From Janthinobacterium sp. (GTDB lineage Bacteria; Pseudomonadota; Gammaproteobacteria; Burkholderiales; Chitinibacteraceae), in NCBI GenBank assembly GCA_025360045.1, contig JANYCY010000026.1, forward strand, positions 1 through 61,817: a DNA stretch of 61,817 bases, read 5' to 3'. Each line of letters starts with the position of its first letter. The stretch's first letter is position 1. Of this stretch, positions 3,107-45,408 are shown in pieces. A program made the translations under genes and the position numbers. The notes under the pieces are model-generated. The model did no database searches and was not told the origin of the DNA. It was given only the letters and a program-made list of their open reading frames with translations.

Positions 3107-5008
3107 CTAGCCCTTAGCCGCCAGCGCTCTGGCAATCTTGTTTCTTGGCACGGTGGTGCGCGGTACTTTTCCGCTAAACCACACCCGCACATCATCATCC
3201 AGACCAATGCCGTGCATATAGTTGTACAGCGCTTTATTCAGCGCTACGCCAAGGGCGTCGTGGTCGACTCCGGTTGGGTCGATAAAGCCGACGTCGTTTT
3301 TAGCGAAGGTGACTTCGGGTAGCGGCAGCAGTGTGATGCCGTATTCTTCCGGGTTTTGGCCAACTGGCGAGTGCACAGTGCAGGCGAAGCGGTGGAAGAA
3401 GCCGGATTGGATGCAGCCCTCGGCAAAGAGCTGACGCACGTATTCCAAAGCATCTACCGTATCTTGCACGGTTTGCGTGGGGAAGCCATACATTAGGTAA
3501 GCGTGCACCAGAATACCGGCGTCGGTAAACGAGCGGGTAACTCGGGCGACCTGATCAATCGATACGCCTTTTTTCATCAGCGTCAGCAATCGATCTGAGG
3601 CGACTTCTAGCCCGCCAGAGATCGCAATACAGCCGCTATCGGCCAGTGATTGGCATAGCTCGGCGCTGAATGATTTTTCAAAGCGGATATTGCCCCACCA
3701 TGAAATCGCCAGATTGCGTTTTTGTAATTCGGCCGCCAGTGTTTTCAGTGCTTTGGGCGGGGCGGCTTCGTCAACAAAGTGAAAGCCGGTCTGGCCGGTC
3801 TCTAGAATGATTTCTTCGATGCGATCGACCAAGGTAGCGGCCGATGCGCCGTCGTAGCGTGAGATATAGTCGAGGCTCACATCGCAAAAGCTGCATTTTT
3901 TCCAGTAGCAACCATGGGCCACCGTCAGCTTATTCCAGCGCCCATCTGACCACAGCCTGTGCATGGGGTTCAGCATATCCAGCAGCGACAGGTAGCGATC
4001 AATCGGCAAGCCATCCCAGGTTGGCGTGCCGACTTCGGCAAAGGCGATATCGGGCTCTACAAAGTTAATATATTTGACTGCCCCATCGTTTCTAACAAAG
4101 GTGCGGACCAAGCGCTGTTGGCTGCGTTTGCCTGCCAGATGGTCGAGTAGGGCGAGAAGCGGGCGTTCGCCATCATCCAGCGTTACATAGTCAAAATAAT
4201 CAAATACGCGCGGATCAGACATTTCACGCAGCTCGGTATTCACAAAGCCACCACCCAGCGCCAGCACGATGCTTGGATCGTGCGCCTTAATCGCTTGGGC
4301 AATTCTAAACGCTGCATACACCGCGCCGGGGAAGGGTACAGATACCAGAACAATGGTGGGGGCGTGCTTTTTAACCGATGCCAGTGTGAGTTCCAGCAGC
4401 GTGGCATCGACCAGATTGAGTGGCTCGCCTAGCGCTTGAGCCAGAGGATCAAAGCTTGGTTGGCTGGATGCCAGTGATTCTGCGTAGCGCACAAATTCAA
4501 AACGCGGGTCGACCGCATCGCGCAATACATCCGAAATATCGTTTAAGTAAAGCGTGGCTAAATGCCGCGCCCGGTCTTGCATGCCCAGCGCACCAAAAGC
4601 CCAGGCCAGCGGATCGCCGCCTTCGTCGTCCACATACACATCCAAGGATTCAAAGCGCGAACCTTCAGGCAAAAACTGGCGCGAGCAAATCCGGTGGCCG
4701 ACGGTGGAATCTCTGCCTTGCAAAAAGGCAATGGCGGGGCTGATGGTGGCTAGGTAGAGATCAAATTGGTCAACAAAGGCCTGTACTTGAAAAGTGCGTT
4801 GATGTTCGGGCAAGGCGTCAATACAGGCTTTGACGGCCAGCAAGCCTGCTTTAGAAAACAACTTGAGTACCAGCGCCAGCGCTAAGTCTTCCTGCACCGC
4901 ATCGATATTTCTCGAGCGCAAAAAACCCGTGATATAGGCGGTGGAAGGGTAGGGGGTGTTGAGCTGAGTCATCGGCGGGATAACAGACAGCACGCGGGGC
5001 GTTAGCAT
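3107..5008 (-). CDS. B12-binding-domain radical SAM protein
   Basis: A protein of about 633 residues. The middle third carries a cobalamin-binding-like Rossmann segment (APTIVLVSVPFPGAVYAAFRIAQAIKAHDPSIVLALGGGFVNTELRE), followed by the radical SAM cluster motif HGCYWKKCSFCD at about residues 365-376. The cluster spacing is C-x4-C-x2-C rather than the canonical C-x3-C-x2-C. Downstream come typical TIM-barrel elements (ISGGLEVASDRLLTLMKKG, YLMYGFPTQT). The substrate is unknown. I prefer the ATG at 5008 (MLTPRVLSVIPPMTQLNTPYPST), the conserved beginning of such proteins; a further in-frame ATG at 5068 adds 20 residues. The gene stands alone between repeats, so the context gives no clue to function. 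Confidence 0.8.
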   Translation of the reverse strand: MLTPRVLSVIPPMTQLNTPYPSTAYITGFLRSRNIDAVQEDLALALVLKLFSKAGLLAVKACIDALPEHQRTFQVQAFVDQFDLYLATISPAIAFLQGRDSTVGHRICSRQFLPEGSRFESLDVYVDDEGGDPLAWAFGALGMQDRARHLATLYLNDISDVLRDAVDPRFEFVRYAESLASSQPSFDPLAQALGEPLNLVDATLLELTLASVKKHAPTIVLVSVPFPGAVYAAFRIAQAIKAHDPSIVLALGGGFVNTELREMSDPRVFDYFDYVTLDDGERPLLALLDHLAGKRSQQRLVRTFVRNDGAVKYINFVEPDIAFAEVGTPTWDGLPIDRYLSLLDMLNPMHRLWSDGRWNKLTVAHGCYWKKCSFCDVSLDYISRYDGASAATLVDRIEEIILETGQTGFHFVDEAAPPKALKTLAAELQKRNLAISWWGNIRFEKSFSAELCQSLADSGCIAISGGLEVASDRLLTLMKKGVSIDQVARVTRSFTDAGILVHAYLMYGFPTQTVQDTVDALEYVRQLFAEGCIQSGFFHRFACTVHSPVGQNPEEYGITLLPLPEVTFAKNDVGFIDPTGVDHDALGVALNKALYNYMHGIGLDDDVRVWFSGKVPRTTVPRNKIARALAAKG

Positions 5009-13108: not shown

Positions 13109-13261
13109 CAATCCTATCAATTTAAGCGAAATGATTTTCGTAGGGCGGGTGCAACCCGCGAGCAATGTTGAAAAATACGCGGGTTGCACCCGCCCTACGA
13201 TGATTCAATGCTTGTTATTGTGTGGCATGCCATGGCGCATTGCTTAAGTTGATAGGATTGC
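13109..13261. repeat. Short inverted-repeat element, family CAATCCTATC, uninterrupted copy
   Basis: The left end CAATCCTATCAATTTAAGC pairs with GCTTAAGTTGATAGGATTG at the right end. The 9-bp sequence CTTCTGCCC occurs on both sides (13100-13108 and 13262-13270), the mark of a target-site duplication. Inside lies a complete inverted REP pair (13139-13199). No gene is present. A larger copy with nested insertions lies at 44769-45341, and a solo end at 31066-31084. This 450-bp gap between receptor and rarD otherwise holds only the terminator. Confidence 0.82.
13139..13199. repeat. Inverted REP pair (BIME), GTAG type
   Basis: CGTAGGGCGGGTGCAACCC, a 17-nt spacer starting AGCAATGTTG, then the exact reverse complement. 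Each half begins with GTAG before a GGCGGGTGNAACCCGC palindrome, the known signature of REPs used by RAYT transposases. Confidence 0.85.
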
Positions 13262-13410: not shown

Positions 13411-14319
13411 ATGTCTACTCCCAATACTTCGCGCGGCGTTTTGTTTACTGTGCTGGCCTTTATTATTTGGGGCTTGTTTCCGCTTTACTGGAAATCTTTG
13501 CATGGCATTGATGCCTTGCAGATTATCTCGCACCGTATTGTTTGGTCTGGTGTTTTTGTGGCGGTGATTTTGATGCTGCAAAAAAATTGGAGCTGGCTGC
13601 TGCCGAGTATTAAAAACCCTCGCGTGTTGGGCGTATTTGCGCTGTCTTCTTTTTTGCTGTCTGTAAATTGGCTGCTGTATATCTGGGCGGTGAATGAGAA
13701 CCGCGTGGTGGATGCCAGCTTGGGCTATTTTATTAATCCGCTGATTAATGTTTTGCTCGGCAGATTGTTTTTGGGTGAGCGCTTAACTGGCCCGCAAAGC
13801 TTTGCCGTAGGATTAGCGGCCATCGGCGTGCTGTGGATTACCATTGCCGCTGGCACTTTGCCGTGGATTGCGCTGTGTTTGGGTTTGAGTTTTGGTATTT
13901 ACGGCTTGCTGCGTAAAAGAGCCAGCTTGCCATCTTTAGAGGGCTTGGCCTTAGAGACGTTTTTGATGGCCCCTTTTGCACTGGCTGCCTTGCTTTGGTT
14001 TCATTCAAAAGGGCTGGGCGCGCTAGGCAATATCAGTTGGAATATTGATGCTTTATTGATGGGTGCAGGTGTGGTGACCGCCTTGCCACTGTTGATGTTT
14101 GCTTCTGGTGCCAGAACGCTGAAGCTGGCTACTGTGGGCGTCATTCAATACATCGGCCCAACCCTGCAATTATTGCTAGGCGTATGGCTGTATCAAGAGC
14201 CTTTTGGCATGGATCGCATCATCGGCTTCTCACTCATCTGGGCCGCGTTGATTATTTATTCTGCAGCGGGTTTGATGAGCTATTGGAAGGCGAGCCGCTT
14301 GGCTGATCAAGCGGCTTGA
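13411..14319 (+). CDS. rarD: RarD, EamA-family transporter
   Basis: A 302-residue protein with ten hydrophobic helices in two EamA repeats. The start MSTPNTSRGVLFTVLAFIIWGLFPLYWKSL and the segments ALQIISHRIVWSGVF and NWLLYIWAVNENRVVDASLGYFINPLINVLLG are diagnostic for RarD, a predicted chloramphenicol-sensitivity/metabolite exporter. Monocistronic between repeats. Confidence 0.93.
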   Translation: MSTPNTSRGVLFTVLAFIIWGLFPLYWKSLHGIDALQIISHRIVWSGVFVAVILMLQKNWSWLLPSIKNPRVLGVFALSSFLLSVNWLLYIWAVNENRVVDASLGYFINPLINVLLGRLFLGERLTGPQSFAVGLAAIGVLWITIAAGTLPWIALCLGLSFGIYGLLRKRASLPSLEGLALETFLMAPFALAALLWFHSKGLGALGNISWNIDALLMGAGVVTALPLLMFASGARTLKLATVGVIQYIGPTLQLLLGVWLYQEPFGMDRIIGFSLIWAALIIYSAAGLMSYWKASRLADQAA

Positions 14320-14332
14320 TTTTGCTGCATTC

Positions 14333-14403
14333 GCAGGGCGGGTGAAACCCGCCAGATTTATGTCTCAAAAGCTCATAAACGGCGGGTTTCACCCGCCCTA
14401 CGC
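14333..14403. repeat. Inverted REP pair (BIME)
   Basis: GCAGGGCGGGTGAAACCCGCC and GGCGGGTTTCACCCGCCCTAC flank a 27-nt spacer. Same family as 13139-13199 but with A in place of C in the loop (TGAAACCC). Confidence 0.85.
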
Positions 14404-14431
14404 GATTTACTTGGCATTGGCTTAATGGCGC

Positions 14432-14470
14432 GGTGCGCAAGAAAAACGACTCGCACATCCTATGAAAATT
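14432..14470 (+). repeat. GGTGCGCAAGAAAAA repeat, copy 1
   Basis: GGTGCGCAAGAAAAACGAC followed by TCGCACATCCTATGAAAAT. Close copies occur at 20774-20808, 22692-22723 (inverted), 41284-41320 and 45272-45309. Confidence 0.7.
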
Positions 14471-14507
14471 GCCCCATGTGCGACTTATTGCTTGAGTGAT
14501 GCTTCGC

Positions 14508-15539
14508 CTAGCTTCCCTTCATCAGCAGCTTTCTCACCGGTGTAGGCAGGCCCAATTCCAGTGCTTCCGCCTTGCTAAACCAGCCCAGATGATCTTCGTG
14601 GGTGAGGGCGATCTGGCTGATTACGCTGCCAGGGAGTGGGGTGATGGTGAGGCGAAAGTGGGTGAAGACGTGGACAAAGTCTTCTCCAGCACTATCAAAC
14701 TCTACATTGAGGCCAAAGCGCTGCTGGCAGGCGCTGCTGGCATCCAGCGTGGATGTCGTTTCTGGTAGGCTCCACAGTCCTCCCCAAATGCCGCTAGGTG
14801 GTCGACGCTCGAGTAGGATTTTGCTGTTACGCTCTACCATCATCAACACGGTTTGCCGCTCTGGCGATGTCTTCTTTGGTTTGGGTGTGGGTAGCTCGGC
14901 TTGGCGGCCTTGTTGGCGGGCGATGCAATCTGCTTGCACTGGGCAGGCCATACAGGCTGGTTTTTTGGGGGTGCAAATGGTGGCGCCCAAATCCATCAGG
15001 CTTTGGGTATAGCGCTCAATGCCACTATCGGGCAGCAGCTTTGTTGCAAGCTGCCATAGCTCTCTTTCAACCACCTTGGTGCCCGGATAGCCGCTGATGC
15101 CGGCCCAGCGGGCTAGCACGCGTTTTACATTGCCATCCAAAATGGCGGCTTGTGCGCCAAAGCTAAATGCGGCAATGGCTGCTGCAGTGGATGGCCCCAC
15201 ACCGGGGAGTTCGGCGAGTAGTGCTGGTGTACAGGGAAACTGGCCTTCAAAGCGCTCCATCACCATTTGTGCGGCTTTATGCAGATTGCGGGCGCGGCTG
15301 TAGTAGCCAAGGCCGCTCCATCTGGCGAGCACATCGTCTGAGCTGGCCGCTGCTAGGCTGGCCACATCAGGAAAGCGCTCTAAAAATTGCTGGTAATAGG
15401 GGATGACCGTGGCGACTTGTGTTTGCTGTAGCATAATTTCGCTCAGCCAAACGCGGTAGGGGTCAGACACTTGCCAAGGTAGATTGTGGCGGCCGTGTAC
15501 GGCCTGCCAAGCGATTAAACGCTGGGAAAAATCGCTCAT
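14508..15539 (-). CDS. mutY: Adenine DNA glycosylase MutY
   Basis: A 343-residue protein of standard length that removes adenine mispaired with 8-oxoguanine. The catalytic Glu lies in WLSEIMLQQTQV (E34), the helix-hairpin-helix in LPGVGPSTAAAIAAFSFG, and the catalytic Asp in LDGNVKRVLAR. The 4Fe-4S ligands follow the pattern C-x6-C-x2-C-x5-C (ICTPKKPACMACPVQADC). The C-terminal third is the NUDIX-like domain that recognises 8-oxoG (GIWGGLWSLPE). The start overlaps the asmA stop by 4 bp (ATGA), so the two genes form an operon, a common arrangement in betaproteobacteria. Confidence 0.96.
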   Translation of the reverse strand: MSDFSQRLIAWQAVHGRHNLPWQVSDPYRVWLSEIMLQQTQVATVIPYYQQFLERFPDVASLAAASSDDVLARWSGLGYYSRARNLHKAAQMVMERFEGQFPCTPALLAELPGVGPSTAAAIAAFSFGAQAAILDGNVKRVLARWAGISGYPGTKVVERELWQLATKLLPDSGIERYTQSLMDLGATICTPKKPACMACPVQADCIARQQGRQAELPTPKPKKTSPERQTVLMMVERNSKILLERRPPSGIWGGLWSLPETTSTLDASSACQQRFGLNVEFDSAGEDFVHVFTHFRLTITPLPGSVISQIALTHEDHLGWFSKAEALELGLPTPVRKLLMKGS

Positions 15540-20846: not shown

Positions 20847-20906
20847 GAACCACCGTGTCCTCTGTGTCCTCTGTGTCCTCTGTGTCCTCTGTGTACTCGG
20901 TGGTTC
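20847..20906. repeat. Period-9 tandem repeat GTGTCCTCT with inverted-repeat borders
   Basis: Five 9-bp units (20855-20899), four exact GTGTCCTCT and a last GTGTACTCG, bordered by GAACCACC and GGTGGTTC, so the array sits in the arm of a palindrome. No spacer-repeat alternation, hence not CRISPR. Confidence 0.85.
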
Positions 20907-22726: not shown

Positions 22727-23052
22727 TCAAAGTAAATTCACAAAGATCTTTTTAGTGCCTTCGGCACGTTGATTTTGGTGCGGCATCCCCGCTGGGGACT
22801 CCCTTTCTTGAACGGCCAAGAAAGGAAGCAAAGAAGGCCGCCCCGACCAGCACGAAGGCCCCTCACTGCGGACAATCGAGTCGGCGGCTGCGGAACTCGC
22901 TTCGCTCAGACAGTCCTCGCCGAAACCCCGCCCCGCTTGTTCCTCGTTTCGGCCTGCTTCAAGGGGACTCCTAAGCCCCGTGCAGAGAGCATGGTCAGTG
23001 CATTTTTCCGTTGTTTGCTAATGCAAAAGAAAACTAGTTAGTACACACGGGC
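22727..23052 (-). repeat. Structured non-coding element, CCCCATGTGCGCTAA family, copy 1 (divergent)
   Basis: On the minus strand it starts GCCCGTGTGTACTAAC and shares successive blocks with 44815-45151 and 61597-61817. These blocks are TTAGCAAAC, AGTCCCCTTGAA, CAAGCGGGGCGGGG, CTCGATTGTCCGCAG and AATCAACGTGCCGAAGG. A conserved stem pairs CCGC-N5-GGGG with CCCCAGCGG. It separates the ABC transporter genes from the mutarotase/ROK genes. Open frames across it are not conserved between copies, so I regard it as non-coding. Confidence 0.75.
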
Positions 23053-30123: not shown

Positions 30124-30237
30124 GCGATTCCTATGGCGGGTTTAGCCGCGACTTTAGCCACGATGCGATTCGTGGCTGAAATTATGGTGGTTCCTAGCAA
30201 GATATTTTAGTTAGTCTTGATCGAGTGCTAAACCTTA

Positions 30238-30360
30238 AACCACAGAGTAAAACGAGGACACAGAGTCCACAGAGAAAACCATCGAACCTGTCTTCCTCTG
30301 TGAAACTCTGTGTTCTCTGCGTTCTCTGCGTTCTCTGCGTTCTCTGCGTTCTCTGTGGTT
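30238..30360. repeat. CTCTGTG palindrome with period-9 tandem array GTTCTCTGC
   Basis: AACCACAGAG (30238) and CTCTGTGGTT (30351-30360) are inverted borders. The right arm contains five 9-bp units (30312-30356), four exact GTTCTCTGC and a last GTTCTCTGT; the left arm has degenerate ACACAGAG copies. It occupies most of the 306-bp gap between the response regulator and the CpxP-like gene. Confidence 0.85.
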
Positions 30361-35002: not shown

Positions 35003-35200
35003 TTAACTCGACGCAAGCGTGTTGAGAAAGCCTAAAAGGACTACAAAAAGCGCAGTATCAAATAGAGCTGGGTGCCAGACCCATTGATAAAATCCAATGC
35101 GCTGTAAAATCCAGCGGCTTAGCCAGTAAGGTAAAAAGGTAAGCATGCTGAGCACTAACAGCTGTGGCATAAACAGGCCAAATAATTCGATTTCCATCAT
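35003..35200 (-). CDS. DUF1656 (AaeX-like) small membrane protein
   Basis: A 65-residue protein (MMEIELFGLFMPQLLVLSMLTFLPYWLSRWILQRIGFYQWVWHPALFDTALFVVLLGFLN) with two hydrophobic helices, the DUF1656 family that accompanies FUSC/HlyD efflux pumps. The first of two tandem ATGs (35200) has AGGAG 8 nt upstream. Its beginning lies in one copy of a 59-bp tandem duplication, and a 20-codon frame from the other copy ends at its start codon. Confidence 0.88.
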   Translation of the reverse strand: MMEIELFGLFMPQLLVLSMLTFLPYWLSRWILQRIGFYQWVWHPALFDTALFVVLLGFLNTLASS

Positions 35201-35301
35201 TGCTGCGGCTCCTGAGCGAACCCAAAACAAGCAAGGCGAATCAATTCGATTCCCATCATTGCTGTGGCCCCTGAGTGAGCCGAAAAAAAGCAGGGTTGAT
35301 C
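35184..35301. repeat. 59-bp tandem duplication spanning the DUF1656 start
   Basis: 35184-35242 and 35243-35301 align at about 80 percent identity (both contain CATCATTGCTG and CTGAG). Each copy carries a Shine-Dalgarno sequence and tandem ATGs. The differences are mainly transitions, so the duplication is not recent. Confidence 0.75.
35197..35259 (-). CDS. Possible 20-residue leader peptide before DUF1656
   Basis: ATG-ATG-GGA at 35259 opens a frame encoding MMGIELIRLACFGFAQEPQQ that stops with TGA at 35199-35197, overlapping the DUF1656 ATG (ATGA). It has its own AGGGG ribosome site. It arises from the second copy of the 59-bp duplication. It may only couple translation from FUSC to DUF1656. 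Expression is unproven. Confidence 0.35.
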   Translation of the reverse strand: MMGIELIRLACFGFAQEPQQ

Positions 35302-44702: not shown

Positions 44703-44814
44703 TGGTTGGTTTTAGTCCGCTGGCTTACGCCGTATTCTGGTCTGAATTGGTCAAGTCTCCTCCAATATCAATCCTATCAACTTAAACGAAATGTTTTTTG
44801 TAGGGCGGGTGCAA

Positions 44815-45151
44815 CCCCATGTGAGCTAAGCAAATGTTTTCTCATTAGCAAACATCGAAAAAACACTATGCCCACACTCTCGGCATGGGGCTTAAATCCC
44901 CCTGAAGCACGCCGAAGCGAGGAATAAGCGGGGCGGGGTCGTCGTCAATTCGTGTTTGAGCGAAGCGAGTTGAATTGACGCCACCTCGATTGTCCGCAGT
45001 GAGGGGCCTTCGTGCTGTTTGGGGCGGCCTTCTTTGGCTTCGTTTCTTGGCTGCTCAAGAAAGGAAGGCCCCTGCGGTGGCCAACCGCTCCAAAATCAAC
45101 GTGCCGAAGGCACTAAAAAGGTCTTTTTGATTTTGGTTAGCGCATATGGGG
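44815..45151 (+). repeat. Structured non-coding element, CCCCATGTGCGCTAA family, complete copy 2
   Basis: It starts CCCCATGTGAGCTAAGCAAA and ends TTAGCGCATATGGGG, an imperfect inverted repeat of about 20 bp. GCAACCC of the target REP is present at both junctions (44811-44817 and 45153-45159). The interior has a stem GTCAATTC/GAATTGAC (44944-44979), a long-range stem from CCGCAG/GGGGCCTTC to GAAGGCCCC/TGCGG (44994-45077), and GTGCC-GAA-GGCAC. No conserved protein. Confidence 0.8.
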
Positions 45152-45233
45152 AGCAACCCGCGAGCCATACTGAAAAATACGCGGGTTGCACCCACCCTAC
45201 GATGATTCAATGCTTGCCATTGTGCGGCAGTTT

Positions 45234-45302
45234 TAGGGTGTACAACGACGAAGTCGTTGCTACGACAAGGCGGTGCGTAAGAAAAGCAATTTGCACACCC
45301 TA
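45234..45302. repeat. TAGGGTG palindromic repeat
   Basis: TAGGGTGTACAACGACG at one end and ACACCCTA at the other; includes the GGTGCGCAAGAAAA unit (45272-45309). Related to the insertion in the RAYT gene at 41241-41317. Confidence 0.65.
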
Positions 45303-45375
45303 TAAAAATCAAACCCAATCTTGTTAAGTTGACAGGATTTTCTCCAATATCCCCTTTCATTTAAAGCTTCTCGCC

Positions 45376-45408
45376 TGTCGGGTTTCGGGTCATTCTGTTC
45401 CTATTCGC
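45376..45408 (-). repeat. 33-bp dispersed repeat, copy B
   Basis: Exact reverse complement of 108-140. It lies 180 bp upstream of the chemoreceptor, in otherwise unremarkable promoter-side DNA. Confidence 0.7.

Follow-up and report, generated by a model that had tools for sequence, protein, structure and literature searches.

How does a short sequence without a gene come to lie inside a REP palindrome, and what carries it there? The window, a stretch of 61,817 nucleotides, has such an arrangement at 44815-45151. The original prediction described there a 337-bp copy with inverted ends and REP sequence at both junctions; its coordinates, ends and junctions are right, and the REP that it interrupts is the first of a pair (Table 1).

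Table 1. The element, its REP target, its other copies in the window and its structured interior
Feature	Position	Strand	Remark
Complete MITE (envelope A), 337 bp	44815..45151	+	
Left terminal inverted repeat CCCCATGTGAGCTAAGCAAA, consensus CCCCATATGCGCTAACCAAA	44815..44834	+	
Right terminal inverted repeat CCCCATATGCGCTAACCAAA	45132..45151	-	
5' part of host REP (GTAGGGCGGGTGCAA)	44800..44814	+	empty form in L168
Left copy of presumed 5-bp target duplication, TGCAA (REP loop)	44810..44814	+	
Right copy of presumed target duplication, AGCAA (one mismatch)	45152..45156	+	
3' part of interrupted REP (CCCGCG)	45157..45162	+	
Second, intact REP of the pair	45181..45200	-	
Unoccupied paralogous REP pair	13140..13198	.	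REPs at 13140-13159 (+) and 13179-13198 (-)
Degenerate copy 2	22734..23034	-	
Copy 3, left junction in REP, cut by contig end	61597..61817	+	
Structured core common to envelope B and other genera	44883..45113 (limits approximate)	+	
Long core stem, arms 44921-44936 and 44981-44995	44921..44995	+	alignment, covariation
Core 3' hairpin (TTTCTTG/CAAGAAA type)	45036..45070	+	strongly covarying

Copies, junctions and the REP target

Three copies had been counted in the window. The main copy and copy 3 stand, the latter with its left junction inside a REP, as had been claimed, and its right side lost at the contig end; copy 2 is degenerate and has no intact REP core at its junctions, so the REP rule fails as a statement about all three. 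As a measure of abundance, three is an underestimate, because the own genome (4.02 Mb) has dozens of copies, 44815-45151 among them: at least 42 places match the element (the best 40 of 178 candidates were scored), at least 76 distinct matched stretches are found in the window and the first 72 fetched loci when fragments are counted, and the terminal motif, at up to two mismatches, occurs 113 times against 13 for a reversed control. The element is present in all nine searched genomes of the genus, which is probably Iodobacter to judge from matches on an I. fluviatilis plasmid and in Iodobacter MAGs, and the exact terminal 16-mers occur in 9/9 congeners (control 0 in each). Contigs of the own genome, the end of the window among them, break within the element at several ends; the element thus seems to fragment the assembly.

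To describe the family, 60 end-to-end elements (36 from the own genome and 24 from relatives) were gathered by their terminal repeats, with at most three mismatches per end and the ends 80-430 bp apart; the loci had been retrieved because they resembled the window copy or contained the terminal motif, so this sample is not random. The terminal inverted repeats are 15-20 bp long, and 58 elements measure 295-345 bp, too short for a transposase gene; the remaining two are 104 and 197 bp. The strong internal folding that had been predicted is borne out for 44790-45180, REP flanks included, which folds more stably than its shuffles (z -4.41).

Do insertions always fall in REPs? With one mismatch allowed, the REP core is found on the left of 49 elements and on the right of 43, on both sides of 39 and on at least one side of 53, and on neither side of 7; in a control, 57 of 20,000 random 8-mers match. 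The proposed rule therefore holds for most of the 60 and fails for these 7, and the evidence supports the broader claim of an element that is passive, structured and devoid of genes and whose insertion is directed to REPs. The elements enter at the axis of the REP palindrome, GGG-TGAAA-CCC, with the general pattern GGG-N5-CCC.

Is the target duplicated? At duplication columns 2, 3 and 4 the two flanks agree in 35, 32 and 41 of 60 elements, compared with 24.0, 21.8 and 29.8 when flanks are shuffled (p 0.001 each); at columns 1 and 5, where the REP loop variants have T and A in common, agreement (43 and 43 of 60) is not above shuffling (40.7 and 42.6; p 0.15 and 0.49). Over all loop columns 194 of 300 comparisons agree (shuffled mean 159, maximum 188), and 18 of the 60 elements have identical 5-mer flanks (shuffled mean 9.6, maximum 17). 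The target duplication characteristic of a MITE is thus observed as a statistical excess at loop columns 2-4. Palindromic arms matching at 6 or more of 7 positions surround the duplication in 13/60 elements versus 2/2000 random places; they are no commoner than after random exchange of right flanks between elements (mean 14.7) and so reflect REPs in general, not locus-by-locus pairing.

A length of 5 bp is not the sole reading of these junctions, because the C and G at the junction are offered by the REP and the element alike. The base beside the duplication is the element's in 7 of 8 informative right flanks and in 7 of 11 left flanks; in 7 of 8 cases with a base other than C after the duplication, the element starts with C all the same. 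That the junction base stays the element's favours the 5-bp length, and the data as a whole speak for a target duplication of 5 bp, located at the axis of the REP hairpin.

What does the site look like without its occupant? The pair at 13139-13199 had been put forward as an empty site for direct comparison; it is unoccupied, but it is paralogous. The orthologous empty site lies in a relative (G008), in which 3314-3917 of contig C8 corresponds to the left flank and 3907-4460 to the right; it came from a search of the genus genomes with 1.5 kb around the element as the query and is documented for one locus. Read directly, the G008 locus is an uninterrupted REP pair, GGGTGCAACCCGCGAGCC. By eye, the REP pair is itself nested in another unit with inverted ends AATCCTATCAACTTAAG and CTTAAGTTGATAGGATT (variants), at 13110-13259 and 44770-45339, so that the MITE sits in a REP which in turn lies in a second MITE-like unit. 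Other repeats in the window are a perfect 33-nt inverted repeat with its halves 45 kb apart (108-140 and 45376-45408) and a 59-bp tandem duplication, 83% alike, at 35175-35292.

A candidate transposase

If the element is too short for a transposase gene, which enzyme could move it? A transposase sharing the ends, one of the checks suggested at the outset, was found in the congener G001. A genus-wide scan yielded two inward exact motifs that bound a 1383-bp insertion sequence (IS; G001:C42:4211-5593, equal to L234 1012-2394) with REP sequence on both sides and perfect 20-bp terminal repeats, the same as the MITE ends. Between these ends lies a 382-residue frame, beginning MQITTQQLLDDDWATVLALLP, which matches DDE_Tnp_1 (PF01609; E 3.4e-16) and passes the cut-off of the NCBIfam IS4-family model NF033592 (148 vs 115 bits). 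At residue 303 it has YRHRWQVELAFKRLK, a motif of the YREK type; the YREK motif is a signature of the IS4 family. The MITE and the IS have only the terminal ~20 bp in common. Two more identical 124-bp left ends of the IS lie in REPs; its only complete copy has different flanking 5-mers (TTTCA and TGCAA), and the contig may join two copies. In the own genome, no inward pair at the IS distance occurs among the 44 exact motifs listed; two contig ends there, which reach only 9-11 bases beyond the 16-base motif, could hide an IS.

Similar ends occur farther away. Searching named genomes for the terminal repeat while leaving out the MITE interior gave 12 stretches: seven are contig ends of Pseudomonas grimontii and five, from Iodobacter or LacPavin MAG records, are MITE-like or remnants. 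The P. grimontii genome holds seven ends CCCCATATGCGCTAACCAAA and seven ends CCCCATATGCGCTAACCATA of an IS (7 left, 7 right), with 18-20 identical terminal bases. At least four G residues and then CTTG or CAAG, which we take to be the usual Pseudomonas REP, precede 13 of these 14 ends. Beside the CCCCATATGCGCTAACCATA ends starts an open frame reading (M)TDATQKLNEDWPKLLALLP; all 14 ends are cut off by a contig end after 108-127 bases of IS sequence. Neither the first 20 residues of this frame nor the DNA of the ends has a match in plasmids, phages, NCBIfam or Pfam, and among 398 genomes of its genus the end matches one, namely P. grimontii itself; the terminal repeats have no exact 18-base match in viral contigs. 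The occurrence of near-identical terminal repeats in two different REP families suggests that the palindrome is recognized, rather than one sequence.

Could the element instead be a long REPIN-like unit, with the REPs as its own ends, that a RAYT (a Y1 tyrosine transposase) moves as single-stranded DNA? REPs do flank the element, which folds strongly, and the own genome has one full Y1_Tnp gene (G000:C83:128392-128730, L031) and one fragment (C40), the full gene being near the REP-associated family yet under its cut-off (74 vs 80 bits). However, the element ends in 20-bp inverted repeats, beyond which lies a probable duplication; a whole REP remains where the element is absent, in G008, so the REPs are not ends of a moving unit; a DDE-type IS has identical ends; and no REP match, at up to four mismatches, is present in 2.3 kb around the RAYT gene or in the 12.3 kb of the Iodobacter locus L233. 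A RAYT-driven unit is therefore very improbable, and the original tie to RAYT gives way to an IS4-family DDE element which shares the 20-bp ends and itself sits in REPs: the mover is probably not a RAYT, and the MITE is very likely mobilised in trans by a REP-targeting IS4-family transposon. An IS4-family transposase would bind the MITE ends in trans and move the MITE into the REP axis through a cut staggered by 5 bp, which would duplicate the loop (TGAAA, TGCAA or their complements). Where the duplications are unequal, mutation and recombination between copies may be the cause, and the interior would ride along as a separate conserved structured module. ISs are known to land in REPs; such a scheme gives them a non-autonomous rider and names the likely transposase.

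The interior and its two envelopes

What is this passenger? Many matches within the genus cover only positions ~69-306 of the query, and outside the genus, where at least 13 of 52 genomes match, all of the matches listed fall within positions 72-303. A covariance model of this core, built from 31 sequences, has matches in 51 of the 150 genomes searched in the order, 46 of them outside the family, and these matches span 36 of 92 genera (E-values are rough, and up to 19 best candidates were scored per genome). Covariation, which had been proposed as a check, is strong in 69 matches from 40 loci, some of them used in model building: 96.8% of cells pair (71.0 after shuffling), double-sided changes number 444 (115 on average after shuffling), and such changes affect 29 of 32 pairs (23.0 after shuffling). 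With RNAalifold, the figure for this alignment is 22/24. The fit of the alignment to the model works in the structure's favour; when slid, the structure scores far lower (at most 0.100 vs 0.506). G-U occupies 78 cells and A-C 15 (shuffled 190 and 147), with 46 of the 78 G-U at three pairs, an excess as expected if one strand folds, whether as RNA or as single-stranded DNA. A candidate pseudoknot between the loop and upstream sequence is unsupported by column counts. Rfam has no match in the window at gathering score and, for the core of nine loci, none with an E-value of 5 or less.

The core is also found in another MITE, envelope B, with unrelated ends ACTGATGTTACGCA (22 end matches, control 0) and several core matches inside. 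Its ends are paired at 368-408 bp in three places and, without the core, at 96 bp in two; no REP core is seen by eye at the junctions inspected. Since the core also occurs in envelope B and in other genera, the interior is not tied to REP insertion. Conversely, the envelope A repeats bound forms without the core, one of 104 bp and others of ~200 bp with another filling: L208 and L217, from an Iodobacter MAG, have the same terminal repeats and a CACAGAG palindrome in place of the core. In the window, 9-bp periodic CCTCTGTGT/CACAGAG arrays (20850-20902 and 30235-30357) resemble the left part of envelope B. On contig C5, what looked like one long element (13939-15256) is one copy and a fragment.

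As for gene context, a simple open-frame rule applied to the 39 elements with long flanks puts tandem genes around 27, convergent genes around 10 and divergent genes around none, with 2 unclear; relative to the tandem genes the orientation of the elements is unbiased (13 ++, 14 --). Location in REPs alone may give such a context, which is thus no argument for a function of the core. Among 42 loci from other genera and the core-model search, a large shared-frame cluster (37 loci) overlies the core itself; beyond the core, shared-frame clusters comprise at most 6 loci, and no neighbour gene is common to many. One neighbour cluster (3 loci) resembles asparaginyl-tRNA synthetase by eye.

Is the core, then, the real mobile unit, with a mechanism of its own and terminal repeats acquired secondarily? 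Its spread over the order, mostly outside the family, would fit, as would the arrangement of neighbouring cores within 600 bp (15 head-to-head pairs, in 15 of 40 loci, with 7 tandem, 4 overlapping and 0 tail-to-tail); but in the genus REP junctions coincide with the terminal repeats, and same-ended forms lacking the core exist, so a self-moving core is unlikely. Compatible with mobilisation in trans, though doubtful, is a core that is a selected host RNA (e.g., a terminator, processing site or sRNA) and happens to lie in mobile elements: the strong covariation, the preponderance of G-U over A-C, even if three pairs supply much of it, and the lack of divergent neighbours in all 37 clear cases argue for such an RNA, while the unbiased orientation, the absence of a common neighbour gene, the high and variable copy number and the ability of REPs alone to produce the gene context argue against it. 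Equally compatible with mobilisation in trans is the view that the core reached both envelopes by nested insertion and homologous recombination between elements, with no function in cargo exchange. A hybrid with an envelope A left part and an envelope B right end, on Iodobacter fluviatilis plasmid NZ_CP025783.1 (L233 5980-6330), speaks for this view; it is the one clear hybrid, and structural conservation across genera is left unexplained, so the case is evenly balanced.

A further reading, slightly less likely than not, makes the core an undescribed structured nucleic-acid family that folds on one strand, is multi-copy across many genera of the order (probably the Burkholderiales of GTDB) and serves as exchangeable cargo of MITE envelopes that are unrelated to each other; carriers or host may owe to it a function at the level of RNA or single-stranded DNA. 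The core is a ready test case for the question of whether bacterial MITEs carry selected RNA.

Comparison with known systems

REPIN/RAYT systems are made of REP pairs and spread non-autonomously. The present element is like them in both respects; unlike in those systems, REPs here are the target and not the moving unit. The bacterial MITEs NEMIS, RUP and ERIC, as portrayed in the passages cited (PMC3733652), are likewise short, gene-less, bounded by terminal repeats and able to fold as RNA, whereas targeting of the REP axis and a conserved core common to two envelopes set the element described here apart from that portrayal. The core resembles BRE, the betaproteobacterial repeat element, in being a repeat spread through Betaproteobacteria; according to the excerpted account, BRE is ~90 bp long, often tandem, found in other families and, in a Bordetella region, transcribed (PMC3110155), a distinction drawn by description and not by sequence.

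For the nested architecture, the closest parallel is in Coxiella burnetii, in which QMITE2, a MITE, contains a GTAG REP targeted by IS1111, as the cited excerpt has it (PMC5896051). MITE, REP and IS are nested in both cases; there IS1111 enters the REP, whereas here a MITE and an IS4-family IS do. No MITE inserted in REPs appears among the titles and abstract openings listed for open-licence papers or in one passage of PMC3189936, and strings of the core sequence retrieve no paper that is on the subject by its title in the open-licence literature.

The nearest known behaviour, going by the excerpts cited, is that of ISRm22 of Sinorhizobium meliloti, an IS4-family element that inserts at the axis of a REP palindrome (PMC1525189). 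Like the partner IS, it combines IS4-family membership and the REP axis with short direct repeats, mixed in some copies; unlike the present element, it makes 6-bp rather than ~5-bp repeats and is a full IS, and the word MITE is absent from the excerpted text (PMC1525189). To the known systems the present case adds a non-autonomous member together with its partner, the use of two REP families, and a structured core common to the envelopes.
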